From positions 1 to 45,359 of the forward strand of contig NZ_JAGGKQ010000022.1 of the NCBI RefSeq assembly GCF_017873815.1: a DNA stretch of 45,359 nt, written 5' to 3'. Within the stretch, counting starts at the first letter, position 1; the number at the start of each line of letters is the position of its first letter. Below are positions 56 to 28,478 of the stretch, piece after piece. Both the position numbers and the translations under genes were made by a program. The stretch comes from Halorubrum alkaliphilum (GTDB lineage Archaea > Halobacteriota > Halobacteria > Halobacteriales > Haloferacaceae). The notes beneath the pieces were generated by a model that was not told the origin of the DNA, searched no databases, and saw only the letters and a program-made list of their open reading frames with translations.

Positions 56-125
56 GGGGGGGGGGGGGGGGGGGGGGCCCGCCCCCCCCCCCCCCCCCCC
101 GCGGGGGGGGGGGGGCCCCCCCCCC
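56..125. repeat. Homopolymeric G/C tract
   Basis: After nine T come 22 G, CCC, G, 19 C, GCG-type steps, about 13 G and 10 C, so the block could fold into two pure G:C hairpins. It begins exactly where repeat copy 1 (130-201) should continue into its second hairpin. Such tracts are rare in haloarchaeal chromosomes. Either a G:C stem-forming variant of the repeat or an assembly/sequencing artefact is possible, and the sequence alone cannot decide. Confidence 0.8.
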
Positions 126-129
126 GCGA

Positions 130-201
130 CTCCCTCGCACCGTCGGTGAGCGCCGCAGCGCGGCGCTCACCGGGGCGCGCCGGCCGCATCGTTCTTTATA
201 A
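130..201 (-). repeat. Structured dispersed repeat, copy 1 (5' part)
   Basis: Read on the minus strand: a TATA-like TTATAAAG (194-201), a GGCGCGCC box (174-181), a 12-bp perfect hairpin (160-171 paired with 145-156, loop of three), and a GCGAGGGAG box (130-138). The same order and spacing occur in the copies at 11509 and 28320, but the stem sequence differs. Beyond 130 the element runs into the G/C tract. Two further TATATAAAC motifs lie at about 288-296 and 325-333 on the plus strand. The rest of the gap up to the end of nreA at 350 holds no gene I can support. Confidence 0.7.
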
Positions 202-349
202 GTAATCGTCCCAGCCGCTCGCAGTTGTATTAAATGCGATCTCGTCGCCGGCGATCTGATATACCCACTCCCGAGATCGCTCACGCGAGAGTATATAAAC
301 GAACGTTTCGCCCCTCAAGCAACGTATATAAACAATACAGTGGTCCCGC

Positions 350-11508: not shown

Positions 11509-11850
11509 TTTATAAATAAATTTGCGGTGGCGCGCCTCCGAGCGGCCGCCTCGGGCGGCCGCTCGGAGCCCGCGAGGGAGTCGATCGCCCGGAGCAACGC
11601 GGAGGGCGACCGACGAGGCTGGGGAGGCGTGAGGTGCTGTGCGGTTGCTGTGCGGGGTGGGACTCAAAGGGGCAGTCGCGAGGACGAAGACGGGCGACGC
11701 AAGGACCGCAGGAGCGAACAGCGAGGGACCGAAGGTCCCTCTGGCAGCCGGCGGCGGAGCCGCCGGCGACGGAGTGAGAGACGAGGACCGCAGCGAGCCC
11801 ATCGAGTCCTCGCGACTGGGGCTTTGGGAGTGTTCACCGCTGATTCGGTG
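11509..11850 (+). repeat. Structured dispersed repeat, copy 2 (long form)
   Basis: In order: TTTATAAAT (11509-11517); GGCGCGCC (11529-11536); a perfect 15-bp hairpin (11536-11550 / 11554-11568, loop TCG); GCGAGGGAG (11572-11580); a second hairpin (11581-11590 / 11604-11613, one mismatch, loop GGAGCAACGCGGA); and a G-rich box GAGGCTGGGGAGGCGTGAGG (11615-11634), then GCGGTTGCTGTGCGGGG. A 13-bp perfect outer stem (11673-11685 / 11806-11818) encloses two further hairpins at 11723-11741 and 11747-11767. It ends in GTGTTCACCGC and a CACCG/CGGTG hairpin. It lies in the convergent gap between pheA and cysS. Reading frames in it are not conserved with copy 3. Confidence 0.8.
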
Positions 11851-11884
11851 ACAACCGTTTATAACCGAGCGACTGGGGCTTTGG
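11812..11884 (+). repeat. 16-bp direct repeat at the end of copy 2
   Basis: GCGACTGGGGCTTTGG occurs at 11812-11827 and again at 11869-11884, with a TTTATAA motif between them. After the second copy come a GACTGG/CCAGTC stem and a TCGCT-GATA-AGCGA hairpin (11912-11925). It may mark an overlapping partial second copy of the element. The remaining bases to the cysS end at 11994 show nothing else. Confidence 0.7.
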
Positions 11885-11993
11885 CGGTGGTCTCTGCCAG
11901 TCAATCGTGATTCGCTGATAAGCGAGCGACCAGAACTTCGACGATCGACACCGCGACAACAACGACCACGTCACCGAAACGCGAATGGCCTTA

Positions 11994-27908: not shown

Positions 27909-28151
27909 CGGATAACTGTAGGGCGTAGACGCGTAAAGAAGTACGGCCGTCGGTGTATCCGTCGCGCACTGGCGTCGAGGTCAGGTTTATAAGTGATTCG
28001 TGGTGTCGCCGGTGGAGTTTATATGTCGTTGCCGGCGTGGTGGACGGTTCGGACGCTTCGGCCGAGCGTTTATAAGTAGTCGATGACTGATCGATAGAGG
28101 GCTCCTTCGGAGTCCCGACTGATCGTATATATATGGGTGAGTACGGACCGG
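27909..28151. other. Gap with repeated TATA-like motifs
   Basis: No gene supported. The plus strand has TTTATAAG at 27986-27993 and 28069-28076, TTTATAT at 28018-28024 and TATATATATG at 28126-28135. A 9-bp direct repeat GACTGATCG (28085-28093 and 28117-28125) flanks a small hairpin (GGGCTCC-TTC-GGAGTCCC). It leads into the 3' end of repeat copy 3. Confidence 0.6.
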
Positions 28152-28320
28152 CGGTGAACACCTCCAAAGCCCCACCCGCACAGCAACCGCACCTCACACT
28201 TCCCCACCCTCGTTGCGGCCGCCCGTCGCTTCGCTCCGGGACGGCCGCACCTCCCTCGCGCGCGTTCCTCGGGCTTCGCCCTCGTCTCACGCGCGCCGAC
28301 CGCGATACTGGGTTTATATA
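28152..28320 (-). repeat. Structured dispersed repeat, copy 3 (short form)
   Basis: On the minus strand: TATATAAA (28313-28320); GGCGCGCG (28290-28297); a hairpin with 8-bp outer stem (28289-28296 / 28258-28265) and inner GGGC/GCCC; GCGAGGGAG (28251-28259). Then comes a second hairpin (28242-28248 / 28215-28221 plus CGGG/CCCG, loop GAGCGAAGCGA) and the tail GAGGGTGGGGAAGTGTGAGG onward, ending at GGTGTTCACCG. Compared with copy 2 it lacks the about 150-nt insert inside the tail. A second TATATAAAT lies upstream near 28343-28351. Short frames inside it are not kept in copy 2, so I do not call a protein. Confidence 0.8.
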
Positions 28321-28358
28321 CCCCGCTCGCCGTTCCGGCGGTCATTTATATACTCTAT

Positions 28359-28478
28359 CGGCCGAGTGTCGCGTTTATGATCGAGTGCCGCGTCTTATGA
28401 TCGAGTGCCGCGTCTTATGATCGAGTGCCGCGTCTCACGGTCGAGTGCGGCGTCTCACGGTCGAGTGCCGAGCGCGGG
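28359..28478 (+). repeat. 20-bp tandem repeat array, about 5.5 units
   Basis: Units start at 28359, 28379, 28399, 28419, 28439 and 28459 (last one partial), consensus GRTCGAGTGCCGCGTCTYAY. Two neighbouring units are identical and the outer ones are diverged. The array covers the 3' end and stop codon of the HNH gene and has no spacers, so it is not a CRISPR. Confidence 0.9.

Follow-up and report, generated by a model that had tools for sequence, protein, structure and literature searches.

A covarying, dispersed element of the Halobacteria: a candidate structured RNA carried by mobile DNA

Structure and covariation of the element

The 45,359-nucleotide contig NZ_JAGGKQ010000022.1 of Halorubrum alkaliphilum (assembly GCF_017873815.1; this whole stretch is called the window below) contains three copies of a dispersed element composed of up to three helices, designated P1, P2 and P3. 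The favoured reading, with a rough probability of 0.55, is a non-autonomous family of the class Halobacteria in which selection acts on the folding of the sense strand, most probably in the form of RNA, and in which spread relies on the ends of miniature inverted-repeat transposable elements (MITEs) and on recombination. Its structure, its covariation and the strand that folds were read directly from aligned copies; that the selected molecule is RNA, we infer.

Covariation beyond controls, as expected of a structured non-coding RNA, was found in two independent alignments. Among 28 sequences of P1 and P2, both sides change in 17 of the 30 pairs, and the covariation score is 0.308 compared with 0.116 after shuffling and at most 0.095 when the partners are slid. 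The P3 core, aligned from 33 copies of many genera, is 97% paired; both sides change in 9 of its 17 pairs, the score is 0.382 (0.114 in shuffles and at most 0.042 in slid controls), and the outermost pair is C-G in Halorubrum and G-C in most genera. Pairing was scored segment-wise and symmetrically, with G·U and A·C counted alike. The conservation of the G tracts in the P3 alignment is partly by construction, because these tracts belonged to the search pattern. An earlier note on this DNA had proposed selection on structure and had suggested covariance models and a covariation analysis as a check. Covariation scores were far above the controls in P1/P2 and P3, and the proposal is borne out by both alignments, by a strand-specific signature, and by paired changes between orthologs at the pheA-cysS locus.

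The gap between pheA and cysS, the home of the window copy, is occupied in about 10 of 30 Halorubrum species; others retain remnants and the rest are empty. Between conserved flanks, a G-C pair of P2 is replaced by A-U (L086 versus L100) and an A-U pair of P3 by C-G (L100 versus L106), and the P3 stem is wholly replaced between L086 and L100. The covariation therefore reflects compensation plus exchange between copies.

Across copies, P1 consists of a GCGCGYGC/GCRCGCGC outer helix, a C bulge, a 4-bp helix, a tandem G·A/G·A mismatch, and a variable inner helix, and the tip of P2 is either GGA-GC-GAA-GC-GGA or again a GA/GA site. The earlier note had described the stems of hairpin 1 (P1) as unrelated in sequence and perfectly paired. 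The stems in the window do pair, but the GA/GA mismatch is conserved across copies and the stem is not free-form. The perfect stems of the window are versions with one arm turned complementary at the GA/GA site.

The mismatches also bear on which strand folds. In the outer helices of P3 from 117 distinct copies, 1298 of 1404 positions are Watson-Crick pairs, and G·U is more frequent than A·C (56 versus 13, p 1.7e-7; 36 versus 12, p 7e-4, with one count per genus and position). In P1 and P2 together, 126 G·A mismatches stand against 4 C·T and 30 G·U against 11 A·C, and the tandem G·A is kept on one strand. As a process acting on double-stranded DNA would have no reason to prefer G·T on one strand, the folded molecule is the plus strand, either as RNA or as single-stranded DNA, with RNA favoured. 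Excess deamination of C to T on the plus strand might contribute to the G·U bias, but this, too, would require that strand to be exposed.

These asymmetries speak to a reading without selection on structure, according to which the palindromes were made and corrected by DNA template switching and spread passively in MITEs. Such a process would produce the perfect palindromic stems of the H. alkaliphilum genome, with one arm converted at the GA/GA site, and the whole-stem swaps between orthologous copies. However, it predicts neither the G·U/A·C nor the G·A/C·T asymmetry, both of which are strong, it would erase rather than conserve the GA/GA mismatch, and it leaves the class-wide P3 motifs unexplained. 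We consider it very improbable.

Copies in the window and general anatomy

Checking the sequence confirmed the places and strands given in the earlier note for the three copies, as well as their shared order of TATA box, GGT(C)GGCGCG, hairpin 1, and GCGAGGGAG. Both copies that had been called complete match the covariance model of P1 and P2 (R1), but the one near 28 kb lacks P3, and a single copy is complete. P3 itself had been missed, and the element runs on beyond the end proposed for it. The R1 matches are at 11528-11675 on the plus strand for the complete copy (11509-11900; 121.9 bits, E 5e-27), at 28298-28156 on the minus strand for the P3-less copy (28150-28321; 59.6 bits, E 1.5e-12), and at 180-127 on the minus strand for the truncated copy (130-201; 19.9 bits, E 0.0024). 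The model of the P3 core (R2) matches 11655-11826 on the plus strand (88.3 bits, E 1.7e-15), where the layout is CTCAAAG-GGG-CAGTCGCGAGGACG ... CGTCCTCGCGACTG-GGG-CTTTGG; a search with R2 found no P3 in the 28 kb copy, from which this part is deleted. The features are listed here, with the complete copy as copy 2.

11509..11519, plus strand: TATA-like box TTTATAAATAA upstream of copy 2 (from sequence; similar boxes in 18/31 other-species copies)
11526..11573, plus strand: GGTGG start and helix P1 (hairpin 1), with outer helix, bulge, CTCC/GGAG, GA/GA site (here a perfect pair) and variable inner helix (R1 match; covariation)
11574..11579, plus strand: GAGGGA linker between P1 and P2 (conserved; columns with little or no variation in the P1/P2 alignment)
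11580..11614, plus strand: helix P2 (hairpin 2), GTC...GAC stem and GGA-GC-AAC-GC-GGA tip (R1 match, covariation)
11615..11664, plus strand: conserved G-rich linker GAGGCTGGGGAGGCGTGAGG...GCGGGGTGGGACT
11655..11826, plus strand: P3 core, the class-wide part, GGGTGGGACTCAAAGGGGCAG - long helix - GACGCAAGGACCGCA ... GAGGACCGCAGCGAG - CTGGGGCTTTG (R2 match)
11721..11770, plus strand: nested double-hairpin module of ~50 nt inside P3 (comparison with 42 copies of the same genome)
11827..11900, plus strand: 3' tail GGGAGTGTTCACCGC...TTTATAAC (from sequence)
11873-11884, plus strand: CTGGGGCTTTGG, start of a second tail unit of ~57 nt (from sequence)
28150..28321, minus strand: copy 3, TATA-like box, P1, P2, G-rich linker and 3' tail, with P3 deleted (R1 match)
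130..201, minus strand: copy 1, TATA-like box, P1 and GAGGGAG, then cut by a G/C tract (R1 match, sequence)
191..274, minus strand: left end of the MITE that carries copy 1, terminal repeat CGGGAGTGGGTATATCAGATCG (search of the same genome with the MITE end)

Reading 39 further loci gave the general anatomy: a TATA-like box, GGTGGCGCG, P1, GAGGGA, P2, the G-rich linker, P3, and a 3' tail that is sometimes tandemly repeated with a 57-nt period. The tail units (for example in L012, L020 and L093) are repeated 2-4 times, and several have TTATAA ~12 nt before CTGGGGCTTTGG. Copy 1 loses hairpin 2 where it runs into a homopolymer tract of G and C (about 60-130), which is apparently an artefact of assembly. 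Long tracts of this kind occur at hairpins in the window (60-130), L021, and L032, sometimes at contig ends, and look like artefacts of assembly at hairpins that were not sequenced through.

Nested double-hairpin modules of ~50 nt, of at least four sequence types, lie inside P1, P2, and P3 of many copies in the H. alkaliphilum genome. Three types occur in both orientations (A, 16 forward and 10 reverse; B, 5 and 2; C, 6 and 1); type D, for which a single pattern was tried, gave 8 hits. Next to copy 3, between it and an HNH-like open reading frame (ORF), the minus strand of the window carries a short tandem repeat of CGCGGCACTCGATCATAAGA-like units (28370-28460).

Taxonomic range and copy number

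The H. alkaliphilum genome contains 74 R1 matches at E<=0.01 (about 68 at E<1e-5), and the element is thus not a chance pattern. A DNA probe for the core detected copies in 35/35 Halorubrum genomes sampled, and R2 detected the P3 core in 218 of 292 genomes of Halobacteria, with 60 of 77 genera represented. In a wider scan it was recovered in 18 of 20 Halobacteria, but in none of about 100 genomes that belong to other classes of the phylum. Three complete Halorubrum genomes have 103, 109, and at least 150 copies; the other complete genomes have 80 (G058) or 6-31. A scan of named genomes located the element in Haloarcula, Halorussus, Haladaptatus, Halobaculum, Halobellus, Natronococcus, and others. 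The P3 core is common to the class. In Halorubrum it follows P1 and P2, and some other families have variant forms of these two helices before it. Pairs of P3 cores in several genomes face each other head to head, their 5' ends 20-27 bp apart. A second subfamily of the core with another interior (CTGAGCGACCCCTAT...ATATGTCGCTCAGCG) was seen at L241, L226, L237, and L214, in Halorussus and Halomicroarcula.

A viral origin was rejected, as 37 IMG/VR contigs with the short pattern fail the P3 model and a phage collection gave no match. A plasmid-specific function was rejected as well: some plasmids have the core next to a conserved locus, but many more plasmids contain this locus than contain the core. 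The locus itself (L323:2560-3108; also L316, L318, L321, L322, L324, L325, and L326) is a hairpin-rich noncoding region of ~430 nt, matched in 155 haloarchaeal plasmid records with 73-100% identity among the matches listed. It lies upstream of a conserved gene for an OB-fold 'DNA-binding protein' of ~290 amino acids, matched in 190 plasmid records, and has no match in Rfam. In several plasmids inspected, a single P3 core is located at its far end.

Mobility

Many copies in the H. alkaliphilum genome reside inside elements of 400-780 bp with terminal inverted repeats GTGAGTGATnnCGGGAGTGGGTCTCGCAA. In genome G270, near-identical copies reveal an element of ~450 bp with unrelated terminal repeats of ~50 bp, which carries a head-to-head pair. 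MITEs with different terminal repeats were thus observed in two lineages, and the P3 core appears to travel as a passenger of more than one kind of MITE; the flanks read for most other Halorubrum copies showed no terminal repeats of the MITE type.

The hairpins invite comparison with mobile elements that are processed as single-stranded DNA. The sense strand might fold in this form for a putative nuclease or transposase, as in repetitive extragenic palindromic (REP) sequences, and the structure would then be selected for mobility and not for transcription. High copy number, intergenic position, head-to-head pairs at 20-27 bp, modular hairpins nested in both orientations, and tips of the GCGAAGC type, which is a very stable DNA mini-hairpin, all agree with this. 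The known enzyme class, the Y1 transposase (PF01797), does not track copy number, however: across 16 genomes there was no correlation, 5-10 hits occurred in genomes without the element, and G058 has 80 copies and neither PF01797 nor TnpB (PF01385). The marked tolerance of G·U also argues against single-stranded DNA, and a cleavage hairpin does not need long conserved single-stranded sequences. We regard this explanation as possible, but clearly less probable than selection for a folded RNA.

Nor were tnpB loci enriched for the element, with a copy within 1.5 kb at 2 of 30, no more than density predicts. Dependence on IS200/IS605 is unlikely, because a genome with 80 copies has neither protein. 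These three results led us to reject an origin from IS200/IS605 or from REP sequences dependent on a Y1 transposase.

Promoter and gene context

The earlier note had placed a TATA box before the element and a transcript start at hairpin 1. This is supported in part. The box does recur: of 31 copies from other species, 18 have a TATA-like box in the 32 nt before the element, 6 have one in the next 32 nt, and 0-1 have one beyond 64 nt. With the usual archaeal distance of about 26 nt between box and start, transcription would begin at positions between the base of P1 and, at the common spacing, a point about 11 nt into the helix. Covariation of the 5' arm of P1 means that the folded molecule cannot in every copy have this box as its promoter. 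Many P3 cores of other genera have no TATA-like box in the sequence inspected.

Gene contexts, taken from a rough gene caller, were considered for a role at the 3' ends of genes, where terminators or RNA-stability structures would be maintained by their benefit to the host. Many Halorubrum copies outside the H. alkaliphilum genome start a few tens of nucleotides behind a stop codon. Of the 27 contexts that were scored in full, 18 lie between convergent genes (7 of the 18 are the pheA-cysS locus), and in tandem contexts of both samples the element is sense in 33 cases and antisense in 15. A general preference for convergent genes was rejected, however, as the class-wide sample (21/70) did not exceed background (42/178, p 0.33). 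Long U tracts are lacking, and the occupancy of loci is patchy, as at pheA-cysS. Such a role is improbable as the main explanation.

Weighing the evidence for a folded RNA

Several observations weigh against selection for a folded RNA. DNA hairpins with G·T and sheared G·A pairs would show a similar strand bias, and the nested modules were inserted in both orientations. The perfect palindromic stems suggest some correction of palindromes at the DNA level, and with whole stems swapped between orthologs, part of the covariation may derive from exchange between copies. The start predicted from the TATA-like box frequently falls inside P1, and the bias in gene context is weak and based on the rough gene caller.

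On the favoured reading, read-through from adjoining genes or initiation at the TATA-like box would produce the folded RNA. MITE ends mobilised in trans, together with recombination between copies, would spread the element, and those copies would be retained whose transcript folds. A host protein would be likely to bind at the G-tract junction around P3, where a quadruplex might form, or the junction would mark an end of the RNA that is protected. The haloarchaeal cytoplasm contains multimolar K+. More tentatively, and with less confidence than in the folded RNA as such, the element might be an unrecognised class-wide family of structured RNA on selfish non-autonomous DNA, with up to hundreds of folding copies per genome and a junction of G tracts that K+ could lock, acting in trans with a host protein.

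The element is present in three quarters of the sampled haloarchaeal genomes, with 100 copies or more in Halorubrum, and is described by neither Rfam nor the searchable literature. If it is RNA, few structured RNA families of archaea would be as abundant per genome, and it would offer a handle on how mobile DNA acquires folded RNA. Even as DNA, it accounts for some of the intergenic sequence of Halorubrum that lacks annotation and is hard to assemble, and its covariance models can mask spurious ORFs.

Comparison with known systems

The earlier note knew of no matching RNA family. Consistently, Rfam 15 gave no match at the gathering cut-off for the window, six copy loci, and loci from other genera and plasmids; a permissive search returned one unrelated tRNA in flanking DNA and otherwise scores far below the cut-offs. 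A tRNA search of the window and a search of the accessible literature for the conserved sequence gave no match either. Conserved intergenic small RNAs without assigned function have been reported for Halobacteria in a halite-community metatranscriptome (PMC7002113); they may or may not include the element.

Among described repeats, those closest to the element are the MITEs, PATEs, and SMRs of Haloquadratum walsbyi, short dispersed repeats with palindromes but no transposase (Dyall-Smith et al., 2011; PMC3119063). Small repeats lie inside the palindromes of others, some copies have terminal inverted repeats, and the PATE palindromes are those of IS605-type transposons (PMC3119063). The element resembles these repeats in being dispersed and free of a transposase, in its nested insertions, and, for some copies, in terminal repeats of the MITE type. 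It differs from PATEs in that neither TnpA nor TnpB is linked to it, 60 genera share the same P3 core, and the covariation is that of a single folded strand. Like bacterial REP sequences and bacterial interspersed mosaic elements (BIMEs), it consists of palindromes that lie between genes in high copy number, sometimes as inverted pairs with a fixed distance between them; however, it is far larger, has several helices and conserved unpaired motifs, and in the 16 genomes compared its copy number did not correlate with Y1 transposases, the class to which the REP-associated (RAYT) type belongs.

Omega-RNA and HEARO RNAs, associated with IS200/IS605 and IscB elements, are structured RNAs of mobile elements, sometimes with many ORF-less copies. 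The element, in contrast, has no Rfam match and no linked TnpB, and reaches 80 copies in a genome that lacks this protein. OLE, GOLLD, ROOL and similar large RNAs of bacteria and archaea have multiple helices and were found by covariation before their function, usually with one or few copies per genome. The element has been recognized in the same way and is likewise multi-helical, but it is a dispersed repeat with tens to hundreds of copies.
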